Shown here piece after piece: positions 15,367 to 31,056 of a stretch of DNA of 64,000 bases. Made by a program: the position numbers and the translations under genes. This stretch comes from Nitrosovibrio sp. Nv4 (lineage in GTDB: Bacteria > Pseudomonadota > Gammaproteobacteria > Burkholderiales > Nitrosomonadaceae). The stretch lies in assembly GCF_900215485.1 (NCBI RefSeq), contig NZ_OCMZ01000002.1:434001-498000 (forward strand), in the 5' to 3' direction. Under the pieces are notes generated by a model. The model did not search any database and was not told where the DNA came from. It worked only from the letters and a program-made list of their open reading frames with translations. The first letter of the stretch is position 1, and every line of letters begins with the position of its first letter.

Positions 15367-15787
15367 GTGATGCAATCCACTTCAATGACCGAGCGGCTGG
15401 ACGAGGCCATCGACCAGGCCTTGGCCGACGAGCGTATCCTCGGCACGGTGGTGCTGGTCAGCCGGGACGGCGAGCCAATCTATCGCCGGGCCGCGGACTG
15501 GGCCGACCGCGAGGGTGGCAGCGCCATGGGGAAGAACTGATCTTCCGGCTGGCGTCGGTTACCAAACCGATCGTCACGGTCGCGGCGACGCGGCTGATCG
15601 AACTCCGCACGCTGGCGCTGGATGCGCCCGTGACGCGCCACCTGCCCGATTTTCGTCCGCGCTTGGCTGACGGCACGGAAGCCGTCATCACCCTCAATCA
15701 CCTGCTCAGCCATACCGCAAGCCTGGGCTATCGCTTTCTGATGGCCGAGGGCAGTGCGTACGACCGGCTCGATGATGATGCAGCCTG
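15367..15787 (+). pseudogene. Truncated, frameshifted serine hydrolase (beta-lactamase class C-like)
   Basis: The first 50 codons (MTERLDEAIDQALADERILG, then VVLVSRDGEPIYRRAADWADREGG) run into a stop at 15540; a one-base shift near 15525 restores ELIFRLASVTKPIV with the SxxK catalytic motif, then LLSHTASLGYRFLMAEGSAYDRLD. The sequence then breaks off and an unrelated gene fragment begins. Only the N-terminal third of the roughly 400-residue family remains, so it is inactive. Confidence 0.7.
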
Positions 15788-15805
15788 GTGGCGTGCCGAT
15801 GCCGT

Positions 15806-16022
15806 CACTGCACCCTGGGCACCACCACCATCCGCACCGCCGGCTCGCAGACGGCGTTCCGTCGTGTGGATCACGATTATCCGCTGGCCGTGGCGCAACG
15901 GGCCCATGCCCATGGCACACCGACCTACGTGCTCAACTCGGCGATCGGCGCCGACGCAGGCTCGCGGTTCTTCTACAACCGGGTCAAGAGCGAGCTGGAA
16001 AATCAGGCCAACGACCTGCTAG
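15806..16022 (+). pseudogene. Fragment of NAD(P)-binding epimerase/dehydratase-like gene
   Basis: Reads [24 protein letters not shown]...[33 protein letters not shown], typical of the middle of atypical SDR proteins of the HTATIP2/NAD(P)H-binding type. Both the N-terminal Rossmann loop and the C-terminus are missing. It is joined directly to the beta-lactamase-like fragment on its left, so this is a deletion scar. Confidence 0.6.
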
Positions 16023-16031
16023 GAGAATACC

Positions 16032-16115
16032 ATGCCCTTGGTTCAATACAACGCTGTCGTGGAAAGCGACGCCGCACGCGTTTGGAGCGTGCTCAAGCAG
16101 TTCAGCGCCAAAATG
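16032..16115 (+). pseudogene. N-terminal fragment of SRPBCC-family gene cut by repeat
   Basis: ATG after a good ribosome site (aggagaatacc). [18 protein letters not shown] and SVLKQFSA match the start of SRPBCC/polyketide-cyclase-like proteins. The homology stops about 10 bases before the right terminal repeat of the element, so the gene was cut at that junction. Confidence 0.5.
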
Positions 16116-16124
16116 AGTGTCACG

Positions 16125-16292
16125 TCAGTCGCGCTTATTCCTGGTTCGCGAAGATCAAATGCAGGTCGGCAAGGATAAATGCAGGTTCATTTGCAGTTAT
16201 CTCTGGTTTGCGAGGGTGGATAGATGCAGTTATTCTCGGTTGGAAAAGCCGTTAAATGCTGGTTGGACCATTTCTAAATGCGGGTTGCTACA
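16125..16292 (+). repeat. Right 168-bp terminal inverted repeat
   Basis: Inverted partner of 12138-12305. Carries four direct AAATGC-N-GGT(T/C) units and ends outward with GGTTGCTACA, the complement of the left tip. Beyond 16292 similarity to the left flank stops. Confidence 0.75.
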
Positions 16293-16500
16293 CCTATGAC
16301 CTAATTAGCTAAATGGTGCAAAGAATCCCGGATCATAATAATTGGTCCGCCCCCAGTCGGCGTTCAATGGCGTTAGACTTGCAGAGAATATCTTATTGAA
16401 ATCTCATAGCTACAATGACACCCCCCGAATTAATTCTGAAGATTTGTAGAGTTCGGCGACTCCTGTGCAGAGAACGTCAAACGAACGTTTGTTGATCTCC

Positions 16501-16710
16501 CTAATAACTTACTTTAAACGTCGGACTATCCTCCGGCCGAGTCTTACGGTGATCATAGATCCGCGTCGTGGCAATGTTCGCATGCCCCAGCCATTCCTGC
16601 ACCTTGGCAATGTCTGCCTAATGATCCAGAGCATTGGTTGCCGCAGTCGCGCGTAGCGCATGCGCACCGATCTTGAAACCCAGCGCAGTCTTCCGCGGAT
16701 CTGATGTTTC
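16501..16710 (-). pseudogene. C-terminal remnant of a tyrosine recombinase/integrase
   Basis: The minus strand reads TSDPRKTALGFKIGAHALRA, then TAATNALDH, an in-frame [41 protein letters not shown] and a stop. This is the HxLR...LGH...Y core of the tyrosine recombinase catalytic domain, with the catalytic Arg, His and Tyr still present. The TAG falls between the two halves, and upstream the frame is closed by TAA. The N-terminal domains are absent. Confidence 0.75.
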
Positions 16711-16840
16711 TTACAGCCGCATTCAAGATCAGCAAAGGTGGTTTGGCGAGGCATGGTGTAGATAAAAAAGCTAGCGGATGCTGCTATTATCCCAAATCTG
16801 GTGATTTGTTCAGCGCTTCCTTAGAGATCTTGGCGGTTAT

Positions 16841-18913
16841 ATGAGTGTCAAGCGGATTTGGTCAAGATCATTGTTATTTGCGATTGTCTTTTTCGCAATG
16901 CTATCGGACTGTAGCAAGGCGAAAGCATGGCTTGACTTCGAGATTGAAGACTATTTACCTGAGGAGCAACGCCAACTCTCACGGGAATTTTCCAAAGCAG
17001 CCCAAGATGCGACTCGCGATTGGAGAACTCAACAGTGCAGTAAAGAGGGAATAGATACGATTCCATCCAACCATTATGATGCTTTTGGTCACTGCTGGTA
17101 TGGCTGTCAAGCCGAGCGTTCTATCTTCCCAGGAGCTGGCGCAGTAGGATGGTTTCGAGAATTAGCGCGAGAAACTGGATGGGGAGGCGAACATGATAGC
17201 TTTTGGCAAGATATCCACAATGAAAATGAGGGGATATATTACAGTTTATGGGAAGGAAGCTGCTCAACCATTTGCGATACTGCTTACCAAAATAATGTTC
17301 TCGATCTTACTGCCCCTGAGAGACAGTGGTGGGACTGCGGAACTAGGCAGGTACGAAATACACGTGAAGAAGGAGATCGTTGCGAAAAATGCAGCGCCAG
17401 CCATGGTGATCCGCATATAACAACCAGGGATGGGTTTCATTATGATTTTCAGGCAGCTGGAGAGTTTATTGCGCTGAAATCAATCACTGATGACCTGGTG
17501 ATCCAAGTCCGACAGGAGCCATGGGAGAATTCGAAGACCGTTAGCTTGAATACGGCTGCGGCTGCAAACGTGCACGGAGATCGGGTGGCGGTGTATGGGG
17601 CACGTCCGGAGGGGGTACAGATAAAAGTCAATGGACGTGATTATTCCGCCGATGACAATTGGCGTAACCTGCCAAAAGGCGGGACCGTGCGAAACCATCG
17701 GGGAAGAGTCATCACTCGCTGGCTCGACGGCACTGAGATGTGGGTCGAATCGTTTCCGAAGCATTTAAATGTTTACGTTAAGCTTGCTCCTGAAAGGTCT
17801 GGGCAGGTGCGCGGATTACTTGGAAATTACAACGATAACCCCGACGATGAGTTGATTACGAGGGATGGAAAGCAGATAACGCTGTCAGGGAAAAAGGATG
17901 AGCTGTATTGGGTCCAGCTATACGAAACTTTCGGCGAGAGTTGGCGAATCAGCGAAGCGGAATCTCTGTTTGATTACGTTCAGGGTAAGAATTATGCTGC
18001 ATTTCAGATTAGGTCGTTCCCAATAAAATCATTTACTGTCATTGACCTTTCAGATGATGACCGTAAAAAGGCGCAAGCAGTATGTACAAGCAGTGGAATT
18101 CGAACGCAACCGTTGCTTGATGATTGCATCCTAGATGTAGGGGTAACAAAAGATGCTGAATTTGCTCGTTCGGCCCTTGCTGTCTCAAACAGTCGGCATC
18201 GCGAGAATACAGGTCATTCGTTAGAAGCAGAAACAAAATCCTTCACTGTCGAGATCGACAAGCCGGGTAGTTACCCAATCGAGAATTTTGAGGCCCTGGC
18301 GGGCCAGAAAATGTTTTTTCGTGCCTTAGCTTCCGGCGGACTGAAGTGGAGCGAATGGAAACTCGAAGATTCGGAAGGAAAAATTATTTTTACACAATAT
18401 TTTGATCCTGGAGCAATGCAACCTGGCGAACACGTCTTACCAAAAACAGGCAACTATCGATCCACTCTAACGACATCAGGTAGTGAAACCGGGACTCTTG
18501 AAGTTACTCGTAATCTGGTTCCCGACCCTCAAATTTTCGATATTAGCCTACCAGCAAGGATATCGCCTGATGTCCCAGCAAAAGGGGCGGGGCGTATCGA
18601 GTTGCCAGGGTCGAAGGATACATTCCGTTTTGCTGCTAATAGCGGAGACATGCTTGCACTATCGGTGCTAAAAAAGGATAACCGCTTATATCTCGCGAAG
18701 TGGCAATTGAGAGATCCAAAGGGAAAGCTGATATTTGATCGACTATTGCCTGACCCGCTGATCGGCGACGTAGAGGCTCGTCAGGAAAAAGCTTCAATAA
18801 AAGAAAACGGAGAGCACACCTTAACAATTACAGGGGGTAACAAAGGACTCCCTTCCCGATTTGACTACGGGCATGGGGAGTACGGCATTTTTTTAAGATT
18901 AGTCTCTCACTGA
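16841..18913 (+). CDS. Secreted protein with von Willebrand type D domain
   Basis: 690-residue exported protein. A signal peptide (to about residue 29, SKAKA) is followed by a Cys-rich region (30-180) with a DAFGHCWYGC...DIHNENEG pattern reminiscent of DUF6973-type modules. A VWD domain spans about residues 183-345, shown by the hallmark motif HGDPHITT at its start and GLLGNYNDNPDDEL at its end. The last 240 residues hold two similar beta-rich repeats (residues about 455-545 and 575-680; each has W-x-LxD-x-x-GKxIF), like PPC-type domains. Codon use is AT-richer than flanking core genes. VWD domains are best known from animal mucins and vitellogenins; bacterial ones are scattered and poorly studied. 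Likely role: extracellular adhesion or matrix, inferred. Confidence 0.8.
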   Translation: MSVKRIWSRSLLFAIVFFAMLSDCSKAKAWLDFEIEDYLPEEQRQLSREFSKAAQDATRDWRTQQCSKEGIDTIPSNHYDAFGHCWYGCQAERSIFPGAGAVGWFRELARETGWGGEHDSFWQDIHNENEGIYYSLWEGSCSTICDTAYQNNVLDLTAPERQWWDCGTRQVRNTREEGDRCEKCSASHGDPHITTRDGFHYDFQAAGEFIALKSITDDLVIQVRQEPWENSKTVSLNTAAAANVHGDRVAVYGARPEGVQIKVNGRDYSADDNWRNLPKGGTVRNHRGRVITRWLDGTEMWVESFPKHLNVYVKLAPERSGQVRGLLGNYNDNPDDELITRDGKQITLSGKKDELYWVQLYETFGESWRISEAESLFDYVQGKNYAAFQIRSFPIKSFTVIDLSDDDRKKAQAVCTSSGIRTQPLLDDCILDVGVTKDAEFARSALAVSNSRHRENTGHSLEAETKSFTVEIDKPGSYPIENFEALAGQKMFFRALASGGLKWSEWKLEDSEGKIIFTQYFDPGAMQPGEHVLPKTGNYRSTLTTSGSETGTLEVTRNLVPDPQIFDISLPARISPDVPAKGAGRIELPGSKDTFRFAANSGDMLALSVLKKDNRLYLAKWQLRDPKGKLIFDRLLPDPLIGDVEARQEKASIKENGEHTLTITGGNKGLPSRFDYGHGEYGIFLRLVSH

Positions 18914-19121
18914 AATTCGGTCATCAGCGCAACAATCCTTCCTTAGGGAAGGCAACTTATTGAAAAGATCCATCTAGTGAGATTACGGCGTAAGCCAGCT
19001 TACTGGCGTGTCTATTAATTCAAGGATCCTTTTGTAGCCGTTTCCCTTCCCCATGAAAAAATGGCATGCTTACAAGGCGCCCTGCCCTTCGCCCTCCTTG
19101 GGAATGAGGCACACTGAATAC

Positions 19122-20057
19122 TTAACATTTTGCTACGTCACATTCCAGACGTGCCAACTCAACTAAGTCATCAGCGGTAGAACCAACGCCGCCGCATACG
19201 ATAACCAATACGGTTTTATACCCTGATAACGCTGCAACTTTTTCGTACACCGCAGCGAGCGCAACGCCGCAAGCAGGCTCAACGACAATTCCATGATCTT
19301 GCAGAAACTGCAAAGAAGCAGAAACGGCCAACTTGTCCGGCAACACAACGCTTTCGATACGATGATTTTTGGAGTACGCCAACGCTTGTTCACAAACAAT
19401 GCGCGCTCCTAACGTCGTCGCAATACTCGATATGCATGCAAGCTCGATAAGAAACCCCGCGTTTAACGATTTCCCATAGGAGTCGGCACCTTCAGTTTCA
19501 ACAGCGATGATGGGCACGTCGGCCCCTCCATGCCGCTTCAATCCTTCTATAACACCGCAAAGGAGGCCGCCACCGCCGACTGACAGAACGATTGCGTCAG
19601 GCTTTAGACCAGCACGGAATATTTCATCAATTAGACTGGCATGACCCCTCCAAACCAGAGGGTCATCGAAAGGATGTATATATGCATCGGTAGATTGCAT
19701 GATTGACAGCGCAAATCGGTGTGCTTCGTCCAAAGACTTCCCATGGACTATAACTTCCGCACTCTCTAAACGCATCAAGTTCACCGCCCGCTTTGAAGCT
19801 GTCTCAGGTACCACGATGATTACAGGTACCGAAAGGCAACGTCCAGCAAACGCAACTGCTAGCCCGGCATTACCGCCCGATGATGCAATGAAACGTTTTG
19901 CTCCTCGTTTTAGATATTCTTCGCATGCGTAGCCGATCCCTCGGGTTTTGAAAGAGCCGGATGGTTGCGCGGACTCCATTTTCAACCAAATGGATTGACC
20001 CACTTTACGGCTGATCGAATGGGATTCAATTAGCGGTGTTTCAATATGTAGCGGCAT
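19122..20057 (-). CDS. PLP-dependent serine/threonine dehydratase-like enzyme
   Basis: 311-residue fold-type II PLP enzyme. The PLP lysine lies in SGSFKTRG (K37), the substrate loop is SSGGNAG (59-65) and the phosphate-binding glycine loop is SVGGGGL near residue 169; VVPETA and EPACGVALAA are also typical. Length matches the short serine dehydratase/threonine dehydratase-like group lacking the ACT regulatory domain. It could deaminate Ser/Thr, racemise Ser, or do beta-replacement; sequence alone does not decide. It is divergent from the ATP-grasp/GNAT/epimerase genes at 21.1-24.1 kb, with which it may form a locus handling an unusual amino acid. Confidence 0.85.
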   Translation of the reverse strand: MPLHIETPLIESHSISRKVGQSIWLKMESAQPSGSFKTRGIGYACEEYLKRGAKRFIASSGGNAGLAVAFAGRCLSVPVIIVVPETASKRAVNLMRLESAEVIVHGKSLDEAHRFALSIMQSTDAYIHPFDDPLVWRGHASLIDEIFRAGLKPDAIVLSVGGGGLLCGVIEGLKRHGGADVPIIAVETEGADSYGKSLNAGFLIELACISSIATTLGARIVCEQALAYSKNHRIESVVLPDKLAVSASLQFLQDHGIVVEPACGVALAAVYEKVAALSGYKTVLVIVCGGVGSTADDLVELARLECDVAKC

Positions 20058-20174
20058 TCCGAAGAGATCTCCATGTAATGCGAACAGCTAATCCACGGGC
20101 CAGTGCAGAGAATCAAGTCGTACTGTTTCACCCAGTCCAGCCAGATTCACCGCTGAGCTTCTGGGCAATCCAAA

Positions 20175-20573
20175 TCAATGTGACGCCCTCGAAGCAATAT
20201 AATCGCGTTTCGCGAGCTGCGACACCATTCTGTGGTGAAAAGCAGATTCGGCGGCTTTCTCTGCCGCCCGCTTGTATTTTTGCACCAGGGCGATGGCATG
20301 CGCTTGTGAATCCTGCCCGTGTCTTCCGTAGCGGTAGCTTTTGTCCTCGTAATACTGGAGCCGTTTCTCGTGTTTCGCCGCTATTTCCAGCAGTGTCCTG
20401 GCCCGGTTTTCATACCGCCTGGCGAGGCCGTCGTGGTCGACAAAAGGCCTGATATTTTGTGCGGACGCACTCGTGTCGTCCTTCTTTGCTTCGATTGCAC
20501 CGGTCTCCGAGCAGCCCGCTAGTAGGCCCAGCGTGGATATAGCCGCTACAAACTTCCTTATTTCTTTTTGCAT
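20175..20573 (-). CDS. Small lipoprotein, helix-rich
   Basis: 132-residue protein from ATG 20573. Lipoprotein signal with LGLLAGC near residue 20. The mature part is hydrophilic and strongly helical, rich in R, K, Y and H (ENRARTLLEIAAKHEKRLQY, KYKRAAEKAAESAFHHRM). I recognise no family. The frame continues 15 codons upstream, but the charged MQKEIRKF start gives a proper signal peptide. It lies between the dehydratase-like gene and the divergent promoter region. Confidence 0.62.
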   Translation of the reverse strand: MQKEIRKFVAAISTLGLLAGCSETGAIEAKKDDTSASAQNIRPFVDHDGLARRYENRARTLLEIAAKHEKRLQYYEDKSYRYGRHGQDSQAHAIALVQKYKRAAEKAAESAFHHRMVSQLAKRDYIASRASH

Positions 20574-21137
20574 GATAGGTACACTCCAAGAAAATGGATG
20601 AAGTGAAAGCCGCTTCATCTAATGCAGTCCATGCTTCAGAATTGTACTCAGTATTATTATAAATGAAAGTCACGTGTTTTGATTGTAAGCATAATGTTTT
20701 GTTTATACATTACGGACCTTTAATCCTAACTGCAGTGCCCCCGGAATATGCCCAAAAAATGGTATCTCTGCTCACTTTTGCTGCTCGAGCTTTAACGAAG
20801 GCAGGGTGTGAGCGAGTAAGACCGATTTCTCACTAGAGCCAGGCCCTAATAAGAAATCTTTCGAACGAAGGGAGGACGTGTGAAGCAGCAGTTTTGTGGT
20901 TGAGCCAAACTATTCGGATCTGTTCGCTATCGTTCTAAATTAACTCCCACTGGAATTAAGTCTCATCTGAAGGCGTTGGCTCTGGGAAAAATGTACAAAT
21001 AACCGAGTCTGAGTCTGTCAACGAATAACGGCCCCGTTCATTATTAATAATTAAACAGGAGGATCTTCTCAAACTCAGCTTTCAGCTGATTTCGTTTTTA
21101 ATAAAAAGGATGTTATTTCCTATATCTATCTGTCGCT
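20574..21137. other. AT-rich intergenic region upstream of ATP-grasp gene
   Basis: No convincing gene in about 560 bases. A strong ribosome-site-like AACAGGAGGATC at 21054-21065 has no start codon at the right distance, suggesting a lost short gene. AT-rich tracts (TATTATTATAAATG near 20650; TTATTAATAATTAAA near 21040) could be promoters for the divergent genes. Confidence 0.35.
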
Positions 21138-22244
21138 ATGGAAAAACTCAATATTGCTTATACGTGTAATGTAAGAAAACCGGGAATGGACGATGAGCGC
21201 TATGGTGAATTTGAAAGCCCCGCTACCATCAATGCAGTAACGGCAGCGCTAGAACGTATCGGCGCGAATGTGGAATTGATTGATGTTGGTTCTGATATCT
21301 ATTACCAACTCGAAAGGCGCAAGAACCATATCGATTTGGTCTTCAATAACGCAGAAGGTCTCGACGAAAAAGAATTGCGTGAGGCTATTGTTCCCTTCTT
21401 TTGTGAGCACCTGCAAATCCCTTATACCGGCAGCAGTCCCAAAACCTTCATTAACAAGATGGATAAAGCAACGGCAAAAAAGATCGTTGCATATGACGCT
21501 GTTCCGACTGCACGATTCCAACTCATGGCACCAGGGGATCGACTCGAAGATTTATCCTTTCCACTGATGGTTAAGCCTCGCAGTGAAGGGACGAGCATTG
21601 GCATCAGTCAAAAAAGTAAAGTTCATGATTTTCCGGAGCTCGACGAGGCCGTGAAAATGGTCCACACGAATTTCAATGAATCAGCGCTCGTCGAAGAATT
21701 CTTGCCAGGGCGCGAGTATACAATTGGCATTATAGGTAAATACGTCTTACCGATCCTGGAGATCGACTACACGAGAATTCCAGGGCAACCACACGTGCGT
21801 GATCCACACGTAAAAGATATTGAGAATCCTTTTGTCACACACATTGCCTGGACTGAAAAGGCGAAAAGCTTTGCGCAGCTTGCCATCGTGGCGCACGAGG
21901 CCCTTGAAGTGCGCGACTATAACCGCATGGATTTTCGCGAGCGAGATGACCAGCTTTATTTCCTTGAAGCTAACGTGATTCCCGGCCTTCATCCAACAGA
22001 AGCTGATCTCACAAACATGTGCCGTCATGCCCATATCCCACACGATGACATGATTGCGCTGATCGTCCATGCTGCCTTCCAGCGGCTCTCCAGGCTTTAT
22101 CCGATCCGATTTACAGGAAAGACTGAAATACTTGAGGAGCTAGCAAATCTTGCTATCAACAAGGCAACAAAAGCAGGCACGATTATCTATCGTGATCGAA
22201 TGTATACACTTTTAGGAGAACAAATAAGAGAGGACGAAGCATGA
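21138..22244 (+). CDS. ATP-grasp ligase (D-Ala-D-Ala ligase-like)
   Basis: 368-residue ATP-grasp enzyme that should join a carboxylate to an amine through an acyl-phosphate. Visible: N-terminal domain with VFNNAEG in the place of Ddl FNxxEG, PYTGSSPKTF with NKMDKATAKKI (typical of Ddl domain 2), the ATP-binding VKPRSEGTSIGI near residues 144-155, VEEFLPGREYTIGI, and the metal-binding LEANVIPGLHP near residue 275 (Ddl has EVNTxPGxT). The changed last motif and the extra C-terminal 50 residues separate it from housekeeping Ddl. Its stop overlaps the GNAT gene start by 4 bases. Likely makes a dipeptide or amide; substrates unknown. Confidence 0.85.
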   Translation: MEKLNIAYTCNVRKPGMDDERYGEFESPATINAVTAALERIGANVELIDVGSDIYYQLERRKNHIDLVFNNAEGLDEKELREAIVPFFCEHLQIPYTGSSPKTFINKMDKATAKKIVAYDAVPTARFQLMAPGDRLEDLSFPLMVKPRSEGTSIGISQKSKVHDFPELDEAVKMVHTNFNESALVEEFLPGREYTIGIIGKYVLPILEIDYTRIPGQPHVRDPHVKDIENPFVTHIAWTEKAKSFAQLAIVAHEALEVRDYNRMDFRERDDQLYFLEANVIPGLHPTEADLTNMCRHAHIPHDDMIALIVHAAFQRLSRLYPIRFTGKTEILEELANLAINKATKAGTIIYRDRMYTLLGEQIREDEA

Positions 22245-22687
22245 TTGTCCCAATCACGAAAGAATTGCACCTTGGGCTTGCGAAGATTGCTTTACAGGAT
22301 ATTGGCGCAATGTATGAATCTGCAATTCATGACGAACTGGAAGAGGTCGCGAGCGGCAAGAGTTTCGGCATTTGCGCTATAGACAATGGAAATCCTCTTG
22401 GCTATGCAGTGGCTAAAAAGACCGTTGATACATATCACTTGCTTACGTTCGCGGTGGACAGGGATCATCGCGGCAAGGGGTATGGTTCTCTTATTTTAGA
22501 CGGCATTTTCGCCGAGATTGAGCAACAGGGAGGAAAAATCCTAAATGTCGTTACTGATGCCGATGCGAATGAAGTTTTACGGTTTTATCTTAAAAATGGC
22601 TTTTCCTTGACCGGTATTGTTCAAGATGAATTTATCTCCGGCATTGCCCAGGCGCATCTCACAAGACGGTTAGGTTATAAACCATAG
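22241..22687 (+). CDS. GNAT family N-acetyltransferase
   Basis: 148 residues with a standard GNAT core: YHLLTFAVDRDHRGKGYGS (acetyl-CoA pyrophosphate loop R-x-x-G-K-G-Y-G, near residues 73-83), then VVTDADANEVLRFYLKNGFS typical of motif B. It overlaps the ATP-grasp stop (ATGA), so the two proteins are made together and probably act in sequence. It could acetylate the amino group of the ligase product or of its amino acid substrate. Confidence 0.85.
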   Translation: MIVPITKELHLGLAKIALQDIGAMYESAIHDELEEVASGKSFGICAIDNGNPLGYAVAKKTVDTYHLLTFAVDRDHRGKGYGSLILDGIFAEIEQQGGKILNVVTDADANEVLRFYLKNGFSLTGIVQDEFISGIAQAHLTRRLGYKP

Positions 22688-23096
22688 TTAATTACAAAAG
22701 CTTATATTCCTCGTAATAAAGTTCCACTAGGTGGATCGCTGTGGTCAGTGACGGTTTGCAATGACAAGACCACGATCTCCAGATCACAATAATCTGCGCA
22801 AAGGCACGTGTATCACTTGTATGTGTATCACTTGCCCATTCGGCATGAAATCTTGAACTCCATGGCAGTTCGGTTGCGCAAGGTAAGGTGCCCAACTCGG
22901 GGATCCGCTTTTTCGATTTCCGTACTTCGACCCTCAAACACCATCTCCTCATCGGTACATGTGGTTTTCTCCGCTCATAAGCATTCTCCAACGGAATAAC
23001 AAGCGGGGAGAACCACATTGTCATGGCACATATGACCTCATACCGGATTTAATCAGATTCCTCGACAGCTTTTAATTTACGCCAAGCCTGTGTGGG
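22688..23096. other. Spacer with one doubtful short frame
   Basis: No firm gene. A minus-strand 38-codon frame at 22828-22944 has protein-like composition (STEIEKADPRVGHLTLRN) but lacks a spaced ribosome site. A direct repeat GTGTATCACTTG occurs twice at about 22808-22834. Longer minus-strand frames here look random. Confidence 0.3.
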
Positions 23097-23324
23097 GTGA
23101 ATTGGAACCACCGCAAGGAAAAGAGCGGCCTTTTAGGCAGCATCCTGCCTGTAATCGATTTTTTGCGGAAATTAACCGCTGAAAACATTGGAGCAGTGTC
23201 AACGGGCTCGCTCTTAGCAGCGTTGTTGTTTTACAGGCTTTGTAACAATTGGAGGTATGGGGGAATACCAACGTGCCTTCTTGCTGGAGAATTTTATGAA
23301 CTCATGAGGCGCGGAGGACGATGA
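23097..23324 (+). CDS. Doubtful small protein coupled to epimerase gene
   Basis: 75-codon frame whose TGA overlaps the ATG of the DapF-like gene (ATGA). It has one hydrophobic segment (IGAVSTGSLLAALLFYRL). No family is recognised and the start lacks a ribosome site. The overlap is the only positive evidence, so this may be chance. Confidence 0.27.
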   Translation: MNWNHRKEKSGLLGSILPVIDFLRKLTAENIGAVSTGSLLAALLFYRLCNNWRYGGIPTCLLAGEFYELMRRGGR

Positions 23325-24139
23325 GAATCAAAGCGACAAAGATTGACGGGTGTGGCAATTCGTTCTTGATAGTGGATGAGATGAAAACCCCGCTGAATGG
23401 GTTTGATCGATCGCTGATTTCGAGCGCGCTGGCGACTCAGCATGGAACCGATGGCATTATCTACGTGGACCAGCTGCGTGGAGTTCCCACGATGAAGATT
23501 TTCGATAGCGATGGAACTGAAGAGACCATGTGCGGGAATGGTCTGCGGTGCGCAACCCGGTATTTACGGGACACGCACATTTCCAATGATTCATTTTGGA
23601 TCCTTACCGGCGATGGCGAGAAGGAGGTGTGCGTAGTCGATGACCTGATCGAGGTGAATCTGGGTGAGGCACGAAACTATCGGCAAATCAACCATCAGCT
23701 TCATTTTGTTTTTACCGGTGTCCCCCATATAGTGGTTCTTTGCTCGGAACTTGATGTGGAGAGCGCAAGGATGCTCGGCAAATCCTTAAGAGAAGAAAAA
23801 TCACTAAGTGAACTCGTCGGTCATCCGGAAGGCGTGAACGTTAATTTTATCTGGCCCAACCAGGAAGGCATCTCCGTGTACACGTACGAAGTGGGCGTTG
23901 AGGACATCACCAGAAGTTGCGGAACAGGAAGCGCGGCAAGCGCGTACGTGACGGCCAAGGTCTTCGGGATGGCGTTTCCGCTCGTCACCAGTTCGATCGG
24001 AGGAAGTCTGGAAATCAAAGAAAGCAATGGGTCCTTGTCAATTCGGGGTCCGACATGTTATCAAGGGAAGGCAATCGGATTTGTGAAGGATCTTTATCCA
24101 AAACCGCCGACGCCAATCTATTATCGAAATGTTGGGTGA
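23321..24139 (+). CDS. Diaminopimelate epimerase-like (DapF-family) racemase/epimerase
   Basis: 272-residue cofactor-independent two-thiol epimerase. Both catalytic cysteines are in place: C71 in ETMCGNGLRC and C200 in RSCGTGSAAS; the GNSFLIVDE start and GVNVNFI are also DapF-like. Differences from housekeeping DapF, such as VGVEDITRSCGTG for the usual YERGVGET-x-ACGTG, suggest a changed substrate. The genome presumably has another dapF, which cannot be checked here. Ribosome site GCGGAGG precedes ATG. With the ATP-grasp, GNAT and PLP enzymes it suggests formation of a D- or meso-amino acid derivative. Confidence 0.85.
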   Translation: MRIKATKIDGCGNSFLIVDEMKTPLNGFDRSLISSALATQHGTDGIIYVDQLRGVPTMKIFDSDGTEETMCGNGLRCATRYLRDTHISNDSFWILTGDGEKEVCVVDDLIEVNLGEARNYRQINHQLHFVFTGVPHIVVLCSELDVESARMLGKSLREEKSLSELVGHPEGVNVNFIWPNQEGISVYTYEVGVEDITRSCGTGSAASAYVTAKVFGMAFPLVTSSIGGSLEIKESNGSLSIRGPTCYQGKAIGFVKDLYPKPPTPIYYRNVG

Positions 24140-24387
24140 TCGAAAACCAAATTCAGTCAATTATTCTCTTCAGGTCAACTTGGCAGGCTGCATATAAGCG
24201 ATTCTTTTGGTAATCGTTTATTGATGCTACGTTCGCATTCTCATCCCGATTAAACCATGGGAGACCTGGCAGGGATCGCTCGTTGTTTTCGAGGAACCCT
24301 ATCGGCTGCTGCCGGACACAAGTAGTTGACTCACAACACTTGCGAGCCGTTTAATTCGGCGCACTACTACTATTTTTAGGTCGTCGT

Positions 24388-24657
24388 ATGGAATTTTCAA
24401 TTGTCACGTTTTTATTAATTGTCCTGGCAATGGCGCTCGCAGATATATGTTGGACACTATATTTCATTGATGTAGATGAAAGAAAGGCATATGGCGCGTC
24501 GTTTTGGTCAGCTATGATTGTTCTGGTGCACGCATTTACAGTCACTACTTATGTAGAGAACAAAATCTATATAACCGCTGCGTTTATAGGCGCCTATTTA
24601 GGTACGTTTGGAACAATTAGGTGGAAGCAGAGAAAGGAAAAGCAACAAAATTCTTAG
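24388..24657 (+). CDS. Small integral membrane protein
   Basis: 89 residues with three hydrophobic segments (FLLIVLAMALADICWTLYFI, FWSAMIVLVHAFTVTTYV, YITAAFIGAYLGTFGTI) and a basic tail (RWKQRKEKQQ) that should be cytoplasmic. The arrangement ADICWTLYFI...GAYLGT recalls a widespread family of small unknown membrane proteins in bacteria and phages. No function is known to me. It stands alone between the epimerase-like gene and the c-di-GMP protein. Confidence 0.6.
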   Translation: MEFSIVTFLLIVLAMALADICWTLYFIDVDERKAYGASFWSAMIVLVHAFTVTTYVENKIYITAAFIGAYLGTFGTIRWKQRKEKQQNS

Positions 24658-24743
24658 ACAGGGTAAAACCAAATCAACGAAATTAAAATCCGCCATAACG
24701 GATCCGCATAACGGCTTTCGGATAGGGTATATACGGCTCTTGT

Positions 24744-27700
24744 TCATACAGCCCGTCTGCCTCCTCCACGCACGAAATCCTCGAATCGGTCTAATGGCAG
24801 AGGCGGACTGAACAGATAGCCTTGGTAGGCGCTACATCCGTGCATAGCGAGAAAGTCCTTTTGTGCCAAGGTTTCCACCCCTTCGGCAATTACCGCTAAT
24901 CCCATGCTTTTTGAAAGGAGCAGAATAGCGCGGACGATTGTTGCGTCGTTATGATCAATCAGCACGTCTCTTATAAATGACTGATCGATTTTTACCCAAT
25001 CCAGGGGAAGGCGTTTCAGATAGTAGAGCGAGGAATAGCCGACTCCGAAGTCATCCAGGGAAAAACCCAAACCCTTGGCTTTCAGTGCCATCATTTTTGC
25101 AATGGTTTCATCCATATTGCTTACCAGGATGCTCTCGGTAAGCTCAAGCGTGAGCCTTTGTGGATTGGCGCCGGTCCGCTCGAGCGTCGAGATCATCTGC
25201 TCGACAAAATCGGGTTGGCAAAACTGGCGCGGACTGACATTTACGGAGAGATGGAGCTGGGCCGTCTCCGGTTGAAGCGACCACCTTGCCAGCTGATTGC
25301 ATGCCGTTTCCAGAACCAAGGCGCCCAAAGGCAGAATCAGGCCGATTTCCTCAGCCTGAGGAATGAATTCGGATGGAGACAAGAGGCCTCGGCGCGGGTG
25401 CTGCCATCGTACCAGCGCTTCGGCGCCTATGATTCCATCATTACTCACCTGGGGCTGATAGTGGAGAACAAACTCGTTTCTCTCCCAGCTTTTGTGTAAA
25501 TCCGATTCCAGAATAGCGCGAGCATTCATTTCTGCTTGCATATCCGGATCGAAAAAGCACATGGCATTGCGACCTGATGCTTTTGCCTGGTACATCGCGA
25601 GATCTGCCCGCTTCAGCAGTTCGTCGGCCGTGTGTGACTGAACGTTAAATAGCGCGATGCCGATACTTGGCGTGGTGTGATGTTTGTATACATCCAAGGT
25701 AAAAGGCTGATTGAACGCGCTGCGAATCCTCTCGCAAATGGTTCTTACCTGAGCAACGGCTTCGTCATGATCTTCGCTAAAGTTAGCCGCCAGGATTACC
25801 ACAAACTCGTCGCCGCCCAGGCGGGCTACGGTGTCGCTGTCGCGTACGCTGGAGATCAGGCGAGGAGCGACCTGCTGCAGCAATCTGTCACCCAAGTCGT
25901 GGCCCAGCGTGTCATTGAGCAATTTAAAATTATCCAGGTCTATGAACAGCAATGCGCCGGTGTGCCGGTGCCGGGCGCCAGAAGCGAGGGCTTGCCGCAG
26001 GCGATCCAGCAGAAGTTGCCTGTTGGGTAATCCAGTCAAAGAATCATAGAATGCCAAGTACTGGATTTCGTTCTCAGCGCTCTTGCGCCGGGTAATATCT
26101 GTGTTGATCTCCAAAATCGACCATGGTCGCCCCTCGTCATCTCTAACCAAAGTCCAATGGGCTTCAATGATCAGCATGCTTTGGTCCTTGCGCCGCTGCC
26201 TTATTTCGCCCCGCCATTCGCCAGCATTGAGCAGCAACCTGGTTGCTTCATTAAAGGCTGTCATACTGTCATATAACATGCCAACCGGTCTGCCCATTAC
26301 CTCTTCGGATATCCACCCATAAAGCCGCCAGGCTCCCTGGTTCCAGAACTGAATACAGTCATCGATTCCACGAACAATGATCGCATTCGTTGCCTTGTCG
26401 AGAAGAGAAGCCTGTTGGCGAATGCGCGCGTCGGCTTCTTTGCGAGTGGTAATATCGCGAAAATAAATAGTCAGGCCTTCTTCCGTCGGATATGCGTGTA
26501 CCTCGAACCATTTGCCAAGGGGGACATAGAACTCTTCAAATGTCGCTGCGGCGTTTTCCATGAGCGCTTGATGGTATTCACGATCAAAGACTGTTCCTTT
26601 TGTCTCCTCAAATTCTTCCCAGATCACTTTGCCCAGAAGGTCACCGCGGTCGCGCCGTAGCAGGTTTTCCGCTTCCTTATTTATATAGGTGAAGCGCCAT
26701 TCCCGATTCAAGGTGTAAAAAGCATCGGCAATACTTTCCAGGATCCTCTCTGTTCGAATCTTCGAGTTCAGAAGCTCCAGTGTTGTTGACTCCTGCTCCT
26801 CCATTGCCAACAGCAGTTTTTTATTTATCCGGCCTAGCGCCGCAACTCTCTCTTTGTTTCCAGAAAGTACAAAGGCAACCATGGCCGTCAAAATACTGAC
26901 CAGAATTCCGCCTAACAGAACGAGAAACGCCTGGTAACTTTTTGTCGCTTTTTCAAATACGGGACGTGAAGACACTTCGATCGCCCATGTCTGTCCATAC
27001 TCGGATAAGGATAGAGGTATGATTCGTTTAAATTTAGGATCGGGCAGCGGTCCAAGCCGATGTTTTGCGCTGTCGAAAAGAAGAGAACTTTCTTCCATTA
27101 CCCCGCCATCAAATATTCTCAAATCCAGAACATCAAGCTCGGTGCGAAGGGTGGCTCGTACGAAGTCATCCATTCTGATCGGCGCATATACATAGCCTGC
27201 AAGCGATTTGTGCCTTTCTCCCAGTGTTTCCGGCAGGTTTTCAATCCCGTAATACGGGACGTACATAAGAACGCCCGCCTGGATATCTTCGCCGGTTTCC
27301 TGGACGAGCTCTACCTTGATCGAGAGCGCGGCTTCTCCCGTATCGCGCGCGCGGGACATGGCGGTGCGTCGGACAGCGTCCGAGAACATGTCGTATCCTA
27401 GCGCGCGCAGGTTGCTTCCCGAAAAGGGTTCAAGATAGACGATTGAGGTGTACTCTTGCCGCGAATTCTCCGGCCAGACTTTATAATCAGGGAATCCCTC
27501 CGCACGTATTTCCTCTACGTGGGCCGCGAGCTCTGAAGGTGAGATATATTTGGCGAAACCGACACCGTGAATACCCGGATATCTCTCATTTATCCGCAGG
27601 GCATTTACGTATGTGCGCCATCCATCCCGTGAAACGAAATTGGAGGCAAGCAGGTGTCCCCGCCCTGCTTTCAATACCTGTTCATATGCCGAAAAGTGGT

Positions 27701-27893
27701 GCTCGATCTTTTGGATAACCTCTGCTACCACCTTATCGAATCGGGTATTTTCGTTCCGCTCCTGTAAATTGTGGACGACAAACCAGCTCACCAGGGTAAG
27801 TGATATAAAAATCGTAAACGTTAGAGTGGCGACAGCCCGCCGAGATAGGGTGTGTTCGGCAGGGAGAGTATGTTTGTAGATTTCTGTCTCCAT
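24744..27893 (-). CDS. CHASE-PAS-GGDEF-EAL cyclic-di-GMP signalling protein
   Basis: 1049-residue membrane sensor for c-di-GMP turnover. Order: N-terminal membrane helix (about 20-40), periplasmic CHASE domain (about 80-290; GIHGVGFAKYIS, YDMFSDAVRRTAM), second helix (about 318-342), two PAS domains with PAC segments (about 390-500 and 510-625), GGDEF near residue 691 (ARLGGDEFVV, active-site form intact), and EAL starting near 823 (GAEALVRW) with downstream ELTES, DDFGVGYSSL and KIDQSFI. Both catalytic signatures look intact, so it may make or degrade c-di-GMP, probably in response to a small ligand. Single-gene unit on the minus strand. Confidence 0.93.
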   Translation of the reverse strand: METEIYKHTLPAEHTLSRRAVATLTFTIFISLTLVSWFVVHNLQERNENTRFDKVVAEVIQKIEHHFSAYEQVLKAGRGHLLASNFVSRDGWRTYVNALRINERYPGIHGVGFAKYISPSELAAHVEEIRAEGFPDYKVWPENSRQEYTSIVYLEPFSGSNLRALGYDMFSDAVRRTAMSRARDTGEAALSIKVELVQETGEDIQAGVLMYVPYYGIENLPETLGERHKSLAGYVYAPIRMDDFVRATLRTELDVLDLRIFDGGVMEESSLLFDSAKHRLGPLPDPKFKRIIPLSLSEYGQTWAIEVSSRPVFEKATKSYQAFLVLLGGILVSILTAMVAFVLSGNKERVAALGRINKKLLLAMEEQESTTLELLNSKIRTERILESIADAFYTLNREWRFTYINKEAENLLRRDRGDLLGKVIWEEFEETKGTVFDREYHQALMENAAATFEEFYVPLGKWFEVHAYPTEEGLTIYFRDITTRKEADARIRQQASLLDKATNAIIVRGIDDCIQFWNQGAWRLYGWISEEVMGRPVGMLYDSMTAFNEATRLLLNAGEWRGEIRQRRKDQSMLIIEAHWTLVRDDEGRPWSILEINTDITRRKSAENEIQYLAFYDSLTGLPNRQLLLDRLRQALASGARHRHTGALLFIDLDNFKLLNDTLGHDLGDRLLQQVAPRLISSVRDSDTVARLGGDEFVVILAANFSEDHDEAVAQVRTICERIRSAFNQPFTLDVYKHHTTPSIGIALFNVQSHTADELLKRADLAMYQAKASGRNAMCFFDPDMQAEMNARAILESDLHKSWERNEFVLHYQPQVSNDGIIGAEALVRWQHPRRGLLSPSEFIPQAEEIGLILPLGALVLETACNQLARWSLQPETAQLHLSVNVSPRQFCQPDFVEQMISTLERTGANPQRLTLELTESILVSNMDETIAKMMALKAKGLGFSLDDFGVGYSSLYYLKRLPLDWVKIDQSFIRDVLIDHNDATIVRAILLLSKSMGLAVIAEGVETLAQKDFLAMHGCSAYQGYLFSPPLPLDRFEDFVRGGGRRAV

Positions 27894-28345
27894 CTCCGAA
27901 ACGCCGCGAATCTCTATCGTATCGCGGCCTGTCTACTTCAGCTATGCGAAACCTCTGAGATAGCGATCGCCTCTACTACAATATGCAACAACTTGCTCGC
28001 GTAACCAGCCGAGCCAGCGAGAAGCAGATTTAGGAGGCGGAACGTTGAACCATGCCAGTTTTCCGGTTTGCAATACCCTGATTACGTCAGTTGCGCCTCA
28101 AACTTGAGATGCTCTGGCTGACTTAGTTGATCTTGCTCGCAATCCTATCCCCGATCTATCCCGGGTAAAGGGAAAAAACTCCGTTGGATTAATTTGACGT
28201 GGATGCAAGCCACATGAGCATCAAGTGTAGGACCAGCGGATATTCGCCCTTATCGCCCATGTGAATAGCTGCACCGACAGCTTGGGCTACGAGGCCGATT
28301 TCAGGCCATTGTGCGCACTGGCATCCCGCGCTGGCCGGCCGATCC
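27894..28345. other. Gene-poor region upstream of c-di-GMP protein
   Basis: Contains the leader of the c-di-GMP gene and no convincing gene. A ribosome-site-like TTTAGGAGGCGG near 28030-28041 precedes only a short frame. Minus-strand frames around 28189-28413 look like shadows of the toxin remnant. Confidence 0.3.
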
Positions 28346-28620
28346 GTGGCGAAGACAAAGACACCTTGCTGCATCGAGTGGCGGCTGAGGGCCCGCGAGG
28401 ATTTGCGCGCCATTGTGGCCTACATCGGCAAGGACAATCCGAACGGGGCGCGCAGCTTTGGCCAAGAGTTGCGCGACAGGAGAGCGCCGTTGCTGACGCG
28501 ACCCTCCTATATGATGACAGCCAGGTTTCTGGAGACTCTCGCCGTCGAGTTCGACGAGGTTGCGTGAGATGTTCTATTAAACCGATGACAAAAACTTCGT
28601 GGGAAAGATTCAATCCAGAA
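28346..28620 (+). pseudogene. Decayed ParE/RelE-like toxin gene
   Basis: The N-terminal part IEWRLRAREDLRAIVAYIGKDNP...FGQELRDR is a clear ParE-type toxin start. From about residue 50 the expected strand motif does not appear in the same frame; shifted frames give SGDSRRRVRR and TDDKNFV, which resemble the usual toxin C-terminus. At least one frameshift is needed, so the toxin is probably dead. No intact antitoxin was found upstream. Confidence 0.5.
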
Positions 28621-28839
28621 AACTGAGCAAAGGCCAAGATCGATGAAACTCAGCTCAGCCCTGCCAAGCATTCCAACTTCCACTTGAGCAGATAGAGGGA
28701 TCTTCAGAACCCTTCTCTCAGAAATGTGGTGTTTAAACCCCCATCCAGGCAACATCATCATGGTAATTGGGCAGTTTCAGAGAACGTTGAATCTATTTCT
28801 AGAGCGCCGCTTCCATTGACGCCTGTTATACGGTCTTCG

Positions 28840-29070
28840 TTAGATCACTGGTCGCAATATTACTTCTTCCTCACCCGTAATCAACCAGTCCAGGGAAAAA
28901 ACAAGATTTGAACTTAGTTTAATCAGCTTGCTTATTCCCGTCGTGGAGATTTCCTTCTCCCATTGAGAAATCGCGGCTCTAGTAACATCACATAGCTCCC
29001 CCAACTGGCCCTGGTTAAGCTTATATCTGAGCTGTAACTGTATAAGACGCGTACCTATCCCTGAATACAC
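28840..29070 (-). CDS. Small XRE-family regulator (paralogue A)
   Basis: 76-residue helix-turn-helix protein: TRLIQLQLRYKLNQGQLGEL, CDVTRAAISQWEK, then FSLDWLITGEEE. The layout is that of stand-alone Cro/CI-like regulators. Starts at GTG 29070. It is closely similar to the protein at 30228-30512 but in opposite orientation and without its Arg-rich tail. Between the two lies an unknown DNA-binding-like gene, so the three may form one regulatory unit. Confidence 0.75.
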   Translation of the reverse strand: MYSGIGTRLIQLQLRYKLNQGQLGELCDVTRAAISQWEKEISTTGISKLIKLSSNLVFSLDWLITGEEEVILRPVI

Positions 29071-29399
29071 ATGCTGATATAAATATAAACGCTCGCTTTC
29101 TTATTGAAAGACTAGTTATACTTTACATTTATGTCAAGGCACCTTTAACACAGCAGTTCACGCCAGCAGGCGCATTGAACTGATCAGCTGGTCCCTGGCG
29201 GTCAGCAAGGCGCATTGCTACATCACGGTGGAAAAGGGAAGAAAAAAGATGGTGGCCCCGGGCACACGAATAGATGTGGCCGCCGAGCAGGTGTGCAACC
29301 CAAAATGAGGGATCGGCTGTATTTTCGCACGTGCGAAAATCACTCCAACCCTCTTATCGCCATCACCTAAAAAAGTCTGATTAAAAAAGGAGGATTCCT
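29071..29399. other. Intergenic region with a coding remnant
   Basis: Plus-strand bases 29157-29308 read as the open tail of a protein (RRIELISWSLAVSKAHCYIT, then EKGRKKMVAPGTRIDVAAEQ and a stop) with no start codon, so it is probably a gene scrap of unknown origin. AT-rich promoter-like sequence lies at 29085-29145 before XRE paralogue A. Confidence 0.35.
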
Positions 29400-29909
29400 A
29401 TGGAAGATGAGGCGAAACCCGGCAAGAATGTTGGCCTCTCAAATAGAGAAAATCCAGATGAAGATGTATTAGATCTGTGGAACGAAGAGCTTCAGCAGTC
29501 ATATCAAATATTGAAGAATGTTTTGAACACCCTCCCGCCCGAGCGCCGAGCAGAGCTTGTTGAGTTGGTGCAAATTATTGCTGAAAATTGTGTATCTCGG
29601 AAATCGCAATCCTCTCTAGCATCGACAGCGGAGCAAATCATAGCCATGATATGCAGAGATGATAGCGCGCGCCCTGGAGTTACCAGGCGTGAACCGGAGC
29701 GCAGAACCAACGAGAGGCGGCAGGGCGAAAGACGGCAGCGAGCATATAATTCATATGGCCCCTGGACAGCAGAGCACATTCACATTCTGGAGGCCATGGT
29801 CAGCCAGAATGTACCCATCAGGCGAATCGCATTGAAGCTTGGCAGAACTTCCGGAGCTGTCGAGGCCAAGGCCAAAGAGATGAATATCCCTCTGCCATCA
29901 ATCGAGTAG
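29400..29909 (+). CDS. Hypothetical protein with Myb/homeodomain-like C-terminus
   Basis: 169 residues. Excellent ribosome site (aaaaggaggattcct). An N-terminal acidic helix (DLWNEELQQSYQILKNVLNT) and a helical middle are followed by an Arg-rich link (RREPERRTNERRQGERRQR) near residues 98-116 and then a three-helix segment (PWTAEHIHILEAMVSQ, PIRRIALKLGRTSGAVEAKA) like SANT/Myb or sigma-r4 DNA-binding folds. A related ERR-x-x-E/L-RR tail occurs in the neighbouring XRE protein. Terminator at 29937. Probably a regulator; target unknown. Confidence 0.7.
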   Translation: MEDEAKPGKNVGLSNRENPDEDVLDLWNEELQQSYQILKNVLNTLPPERRAELVELVQIIAENCVSRKSQSSLASTAEQIIAMICRDDSARPGVTRREPERRTNERRQGERRQRAYNSYGPWTAEHIHILEAMVSQNVPIRRIALKLGRTSGAVEAKAKEMNIPLPSIE

Positions 29910-29936
29910 TCCTCCCATTGCGCTGACTATTGCGCC

Positions 29937-29960
29937 AACCCGCGTTAAGCGGGTTTTTAT
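29937..29960 (+). terminator. Rho-independent terminator
   Basis: AACCCGC, loop GTTAA, GCGGGTT followed by TTTTAT, 28 bases after the stop of the gene at 29400-29909. Confidence 0.85.
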
Positions 29961-30227
29961 TGCGCAATCTTCCCCCTGTTAAAGGCGGGCGATAAGCCTG
30001 AACTGAAGTTATTCAGGAAAAAGATAACACGCCTGTCCAACGGAGGTATCGGTAGATCAGATTGGAAAAAAACATGGCCGGGTAACTCCAGGATACCCTT
30101 TGCCCCTTTCATGAAAGTTAAATAATACTTGACATACGAGTAAAGCGTTACTATCATAAATTTCATATCCAATTTTTGTAATTGAAAAAATAAAATATTG
30201 AATACCTCTAAACTGAATCAAACGAAT

Positions 30228-30597: not shown

Positions 30598-31056
30598 ATG
30601 TTTGGAAAAAAGAAGACTAATGAATCGCCAAACCATATAGATTCACTTATCGGCACAGATACCGAAATTCGCGGCGATATCAACTTTCAGGGAGGATTGC
30701 GAATAGATGGCCGTGTAACTGGAAATATTACCGCCTCAGGCGACAGGTCCAGCACACTGATCATGAGTAAGGAGGCCTTTGTTCAAGGCCAAATCGAAGT
30801 TTCATACGCGATTATCAACGGTACTGTCGTTGGGCCTATCCACTCATACGAATATCTTGAACTGCAAGCCGAAGCCAAAGTCTCTGGAGCAGTTTCTTAC
30901 AAAAACATGGCAACGCATATTGGGGCAACAGTCAATGGTGTGTGCCGCCATCTGGATAAAGCGCAACCCGGCAATAAGGTAGTTACGTTAATACCACCTA
31001 CAGAAGTCGCCTCACCTTCGCGGCTGCACCTTACAGTCGACTTGGACGAACAATAA
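30598..31056 (+). CDS. Bactofilin family cytoskeletal protein
   Basis: 152-residue polymer-forming protein. The DUF583 core runs from about residue 17 to 110: LIGTDTEIRGDINFQGGLRI, DGRVTGNIT, then repeated short beta-strand turns (EAFVQGQIEVSYAIINGTVV, HSYEYLELQAEAKVSGAVSY) forming the right-handed beta-helix. The N-terminal KKKTNES may bind membrane. Bactofilins scaffold cell-shape or polarity functions. Ribosome site acgagaggac. No peptidoglycan hydrolase gene lies beside it, unlike many bactofilin loci. Confidence 0.88.
   Translation: MFGKKKTNESPNHIDSLIGTDTEIRGDINFQGGLRIDGRVTGNITASGDRSSTLIMSKEAFVQGQIEVSYAIINGTVVGPIHSYEYLELQAEAKVSGAVSYKNMATHIGATVNGVCRHLDKAQPGNKVVTLIPPTEVASPSRLHLTVDLDEQ

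Follow-up and report, generated by a model that had tools for sequence, protein, structure and literature searches.

Why does one short piece of a bacterial genome hold a gene resembling ddl, an acetyltransferase gene and a gene resembling dapF on the same strand? The locus lies in a stretch of 64,000 nucleotides from Nitrosovibrio sp. Nv4 (contig NZ_OCMZ01000002.1, positions 434,001 to 498,000), which is called the window below. A first-pass annotation made from the letters of the window had picked out five genes, an ATP-grasp ligase, a GNAT acetyltransferase and a two-cysteine epimerase of the DapF type on one strand, together with a divergent fold-II pyridoxal phosphate (PLP) enzyme and a lipoprotein, and had proposed a pathway to an unusual amino-acid conjugate with a parallel in D-cycloserine biosynthesis. 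All five genes exist as described (Table 1). The ligase and GNAT genes share 4 bases, the motifs EANVIPG and VEDITRSCGTG were found in the ligase and the epimerase, respectively, and both Pfam and NCBIfam agreed with the family assignments of all four enzymes; neither gave a family for the lipoprotein. In our reading, to which we assign a probability of roughly 0.45, the ligase, the GNAT, the epimerase and a fourth gene, overlooked in the annotation, form a self-contained cassette. As judged from sequences and predicted folds, it would encode a dedicated pathway to an N-acetylated conjugate whose D-amino acid is probably cationic.

Species genomes were scanned with peptide patterns of the window ligase only, so that remote cassettes may escape, and this gave 28 related loci. 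Twenty-six of these were titled Nitrosomonas or Nitrosomonadaceae, one was titled Proteobacteria (L018), and one was a Pacearchaeota contig with a ligase 55% identical to that of the window. Ligase, GNAT and epimerase had the same order and strand in all 28 loci. The grouping noticed in the annotation is therefore real and more than chance. A match to the fourth gene follows the epimerase in 27 of the 28 loci; it is complete or almost complete in 25, and partial in L015 and L024, where a contig end is close. When open frames were clustered, only the three enzymes, alternative frames inside the cassette genes and the fourth gene exceeded 7 of the 28 loci. The annotation had also counted the PLP enzyme and the lipoprotein to the locus, and this part did not stand: neither a serine dehydratase nor a lipoprotein match was found in any of the 28 loci, 22 of which had the full 6 kb upstream while the rest were cut by contig ends. 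The Pacearchaeota-titled contig carries a TFIIE-alpha gene, which argues against misbinned bacterial DNA. Two further neighbours were considered. Ketosynthase genes occurred downstream in 5 of the 28 loci only. A gene for an extracytoplasmic-type sigma factor lies near the cassette in 7 of the 28 loci, but a role as regulator of the cassette found no support, no copy of the promoter-like box treated below being found upstream of the seven sigma genes.

The distribution in genomes gave a similar picture. At E ≤ 1e-90 the ligase was found in 34 of 125 family genomes, namely the window's own and 33 of the 85 genomes of a genus taken by inference to be Nitrosomonas (g2); no other genome of the window's own genus matched at this threshold. 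The epimerase at E ≤ 1e-60 was found in 33 of the 85 g2 genomes, identical to the 33 ligase carriers, and the other 52 had neither gene at these thresholds (Fisher 2.5e-24, for genomes which are related and not independent). The fourth gene was matched in all 33 carriers, in 31 at full length beside the epimerase. The exceptions were G862, with a partial match near a contig end, and G792, with a match on another contig only, its cassette contig ending soon past the epimerase. A second, more distant copy of the fourth gene was present in 8 of the 33. Among the 52 g2 genomes lacking the cassette, three (G780, G850, G852) gave matches to the fourth gene, all of them fragmentary or interrupted by internal stops; a cassette once present there may have left them behind. 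By gene order and co-presence, ligase, GNAT, epimerase and a small protein of membrane type are one cassette inherited together.

A wider search was made with the ligase profile at E ≤ 1e-45. In the phylum it matched 10 of 398 genomes, and in the phylum to which the archaeal genome belongs 20 of 371. Scores at the level of the cassette were reached only in G000 (734 bits) and G398 (591 bits), the others lying between 158 and 239, and no GNAT or epimerase was found within the short flanks examined at the remaining 9 and 19 Ddl-like loci. In Pseudomonadota as well as in the archaeal phylum, some loci (L042-L044, L047-L049, L058-L060, L062-L068) have two Ddl-like ATP-grasp genes side by side or fused, 22-40% identical to the cassette ligases and with no GNAT or epimerase in the flanks examined. 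Viral contigs gave one remote ATP-grasp match and no epimerase, and plasmids gave only matches below 60% identity.

The two enzymes with housekeeping names are not the only ddl and dapF of the genome. Canonical copies of both lie on another contig, with 303 bits for dapF against 145 for the window epimerase, and 193 bits for ddl against 74 for the window ligase. The cassette enzymes thus differ in sequence from the canonical pair. Together with the linkage in all 28 loci, the separate canonical genes bear out the earlier suggestion of a non-housekeeping set.

Pocket residues of the epimerases from 29 cassettes were aligned to E. coli DapF and to the genome's own DapF. The likeness to DapF extends to the fold, both catalytic cysteines (C71 and C200, kept in 29/29) and the residues for the alpha-carboxylate and the alpha-amine, and Glu208 is likewise kept in 29/29. 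The difference lies at the distal carboxylate, where three of four residues are changed: Asn64 to Asp and Asn157 to Val in 29/29, and Arg209 to Val in 26 and Met in 3. According to the available part of a study on C. glutamicum DapF (PMC5296763), the residues Asn74, Asn159, Asn194 and Arg213 of that enzyme bind the distal carboxylate, and alanine at each of the four almost abolished activity. The changed pocket suggests an epimerase altered away from diaminopimelate (DAP). Because Arg209 is lost and an Asp is gained at position 64, a cationic side chain of the substrate would be favoured, such as that of diaminobutyrate (Dab), ornithine, lysine, arginine or histidine.

The predicted model of the epimerase (mean predicted local distance difference test score, pLDDT, 82.5, good) fitted a DapF and O-ureidoserine racemase equally well, both at Z 27.4; proline-racemase, PhzF and histidine-racemase entries, as further candidates, ranked lower in the fold list. 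The equal fit is what a pathway of the D-cycloserine kind could be expected to give. By sequence, O-ureidoserine racemase scored 51 bits against 101 for the best DapF, though above the DapF entry 3fve at 48. The remaining enzymes do not follow the parallel: the ligase and its relatives are of the Ddl type, and the unlinked PLP enzyme has L-serine dehydratase/L-threonine deaminase 4h27 as its best solved relative (E 3.7e-80), compared with 2e-13 for the best entry of the cysteine-synthase type. We find a D-cycloserine-like pathway hardly credible on these comparisons, no search for other Dcs enzymes having been made, and this part of the first-pass annotation found no support.

In the ligase, which holds the C-terminal domain of D-Ala-D-Ala ligase, the likeness to Ddl and Van enzymes covers the fold and the residues K97, K144, E180, E187, D257, E270 and N272, kept in 29/29, which we take to be the ATP/Mg residues of Ddl. 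The model (mean pLDDT 76.3, fair) reached Z 22.3 to Ddl structures. The acceptor side differs. Ser281 of DdlB, which presumably binds the carboxylate of the second D-Ala, is replaced by Asp in 29/29 by alignment; Lys215 is replaced by Pro in 29/29, Tyr216 is His in 23 and Tyr in 6, and Ser150 is changed to Thr. Arg255, which we assume to contact the acceptor, is kept. At its C-terminus the ligase has about 45 further residues, past the part that aligned to solved structures.

A ligase of the Ddl/Van kind with a racemase-fold enzyme in the same unit could also be a cell-wall variant, making an alternative D-amino-acid dipeptide for peptidoglycan in the manner of the Van sets, which consist of a ligase, a racemase and a D,D-dipeptidase. 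Directly after the archaeal cassette there is indeed a gene resembling an M15 (VanX/VanY-type) D,D-peptidase (L040:8412-9023), found at this locus only. Archaea lack murein, and the three-enzyme unit is present on the Pacearchaeota contig with the TFIIE-alpha gene. The cassette ligases have Asp at the place of the acceptor serine, and Van sets are, to our knowledge, without a GNAT. A role in the cell wall appears unlikely on these grounds.

The best matches of the GNAT were N-terminal acetyltransferases (best E 1.6e-10), followed by weak matches to spermine/spermidine and diamine acetyltransferases (E 1.7e-4 and 9e-4). The latter would agree with a ligase that uses a polyamine or diamine as the acceptor for an amino acid; the GNAT would then cap a free amine and the epimerase would supply the D-amino acid. 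An Asp at the Ser281 place would favour a cationic acceptor. The better scores to N-terminal acetyltransferases and the retained Arg255 speak against such an acceptor, and we hold it to be improbable.

In the mechanism that we propose for the cassette, the two-cysteine enzyme would racemise a free amino acid other than DAP. The Ddl-like ligase would activate an amino-acid carboxylate with ATP and couple it to an amine, at an acceptor site altered by the Ser281 to Asp change, and a free amine would be acetylated by the GNAT. This would yield a small D-amino-acid dipeptide or amide in N-acetylated form. The cell may retain it as a solute or nitrogen reserve, or the membrane-type protein may help to export it. 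As an alternative, the cassette could serve catabolism or detoxification, in which an unusual D-amino acid would be epimerised and acetylated and the ligase would act as a scavenger; the patchy spread (33 of the 85 g2 genomes) suits such an accessory function. An ATP-spending ligase would rather point to synthesis, and no degradative partner is visible, since besides the fourth gene no neighbour occurs in more than 7 of the 28 loci; we consider a catabolic role quite unlikely.

Upstream of the ligase we observed a two-part, promoter-like box, TGTNAAC and CGTTA separated by about 16 bases, with the consensus TGTNAAC-N16-CGTTAAT. The strict box stands before the ligase in 25 of the 27 bacterial loci (L013-L039). 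L027 has a loose form only, and no box was found in L036, where 157 bp remain to the contig edge. A longer exact form, TGTNAAC-N13-20-CGTTAAT, was counted 19 times over the 316 kb of the 28 loci, 18 times before the ligase and once before the cyanophycin synthetase gene cphA, against about 0.08 expected with even base use; this form was not found in the window. In six whole genomes the exact N16 matches were four ligase promoters and one cphA promoter. When one mismatch or none was allowed, there were 24 matches in the same genomes against 31 for a reversed control, and the one-mismatch matches are therefore mostly chance. Of 30 cphA loci, 8 were not scorable, and the box was present in 21 of the 22 scored, comprising 13 from genomes with the cassette and 8 from genomes lacking it. 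The box starts 57-59 bp before the start of cyanophycin synthetase at L013:9123, L132:1501 and L140:1501. By these sequence counts a promoter-like box is common to the cassette and the cyanophycin synthetase genes. According to the part of the text available, cphA is present in 7 of 12 Nitrosomonas genomes (PMC10687191). A further, rather doubtful possibility is that the cassette would make an undescribed class of metabolite in ammonia-oxidising bacteria, an acetylated dipeptide or amide of a D-cationic amino acid that serves as a nitrogen-rich solute or reserve under a cphA-type promoter, with an enzyme set common with a DPANN archaeon.

Several observations weigh against the reading that we favour. 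Firstly, the archaeal locus L040 lacks the fourth gene. Secondly, Asn190, the fourth of the distal-carboxylate residues, is kept in 29/29 epimerases, which leaves some probability for an acidic group on the substrate. The alignment that gives Asp at the Ser281 place contains a gap, and if it is read gapless, by eye, the position is Glu288. The GNAT matches are uninformative on the substrate. A link between the cassette and cyanophycin by gene presence was tried and rejected, as cphA is found in 21 of the 33 carriers and in 32 of the 52 other genomes (p = 1). In favour of the reading, the cassette genes are intact in the window and look to be under purifying selection, with a ratio of nonsynonymous to synonymous substitution rates (dN/dS) of 0.10-0.21 against two relatives; this estimate is weakened by a dS of 0.6-1.2, which is near saturation. 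Finally, the window epimerase passes the NCBIfam DapF equivalog cut-off with 146.9 against 114.65 bits, as would be fitting if housekeeping copies of ddl and dapF merely stood beside an unrelated GNAT. That explanation is very improbable in view of the canonical ddl and dapF elsewhere in the genome, the changed pocket residues and the lack of the unit in 52 of the 85 g2 genomes.

Among known systems, the osmolyte enzyme N-acetylglutaminylglutamine synthetase (TIGR03103) combines ATP-grasp and GNAT to make an acetylated dipeptide. The cassette has the same logic; the difference is that its genes are separate and an epimerase is added, and TIGR03103 is not among the NCBIfam matches listed for the ligase (25 of 30). 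On a Streptomyces plasmid (NZ_CP108307.1) a DapF-like and an ATP-grasp gene are adjacent and overlapping, and a C39 peptidase gene belongs to the locus. The epimerase there shows 28% identity, and no GNAT is listed among the genes of the region, for which the table is incomplete. As far as the available text of PMC10764440 goes, the biosynthetic cluster for belactosin A combines ATP-grasp ligases with BelM, which may be a DapF homologue, but BelM is proposed to supply lysine and iron oxygenases are present there; this is a comparison of gene content. The combination of a DapF relative with an ATP-grasp enzyme is thus not wholly new, given the belactosin cluster and the Streptomyces plasmid locus. 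PddB, the diaminobutyrate racemase of poly-D-Dab producers, was modelled with Val at the Arg209 place, according to the available part of PMC8225329. It resembles the cassette epimerase as a DapF-type racemase encoded beside an amide-forming enzyme, with Val at that place (26/29 in the cassettes) and Glu208 kept. The differences, compared by description only, are that the cassettes keep Asn190 and that the partner is a Ddl-type ATP-grasp enzyme and not a poly-D-Dab synthetase. In addition, PddB is described with an N-terminal extension of 27-28 residues, which the window epimerase lacks, its start lying no more than a few residues away from that of E. coli DapF. No paper describing the set of ligase, GNAT and epimerase was found in the open-licence literature, a scope that leaves most subscription journals outside.

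Routine annotation would name two of the cassette genes ddl and dapF, and in this way a possible pathway may be hidden in nitrifier genomes. The pocket residues offer a simple sequence test for mis-annotated DapF relatives. If a D-amino-acid metabolite is made, an aspect of how ammonia oxidisers handle nitrogen and stress would become open to experiment, and genes like ddl and dapF would be shown able to travel as a kit.

Table 1. Genes and promoter-like box of the cassette region, in positions of the window.
Feature	Position	Strand	Evidence
PLP enzyme (PALP-type, fold-II)	19122-20057	-	Open reading frame; Pfam and NCBIfam
Lipoprotein, LLAGC lipobox (by eye)	20175-20618	-	No Pfam or NCBIfam family
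Degenerate copy of promoter-like box, TGTCAAC-N16-CATTATT	21016-21045	+	Loose pattern only, read by eye
Ddl-fold ATP-grasp ligase with C-terminal extension	21138-22244	+	Pfam PF07478; predicted model resembles Ddl structures
GNAT N-acetyltransferase	22241-22687	+	Pfam PF00583/PF13508
DapF-fold two-cysteine racemase/epimerase, altered distal pocket	23321-24139	+	Pfam PF01678, TIGR00652
Fourth cassette gene, 89 aa, hydrophobic stretches (membrane protein by eye)	24388-24657	+	No family match above cut-off

The gap between GNAT and epimerase measures 633 bp in the window (22688-23320), compared with 33-242 bp between the matches in relatives. This stretch is single copy, no second one being found in the genome, and no inverted repeat of at least 12 was found in it. 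A search of positions 16000-30000 against Rfam gave no RNA match at E ≤ 1. The GC content is 48% at 16-32 kb, compared with 56% at 1-15 kb, about 51% at 32-42 kb and 54% beyond 42 kb. Across the 28 loci the window cassette was closest to L013 (84%, 82% and 81%), and the trees placed it near L013 and L024 without strong support. The window cassette was probably acquired horizontally, as its base composition and relatives suggest; alternatively it may have been lost in all relatives of its genus, and the trees are not decisive on this point. Inside the low-GC stretch lies a gene (16841-18913) whose product of 690 aa has a von Willebrand factor type D domain. At 15480-16255 overlapping short frames resemble, by eye, a broken hydrolase gene. 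Positions 28291-28481 are 85.5% identical to a plasmid of Nitrosospira sp. NRS527 at a toxin gene of the RelE/ParE family, and a bactofilin gene is found at 30598-31056.

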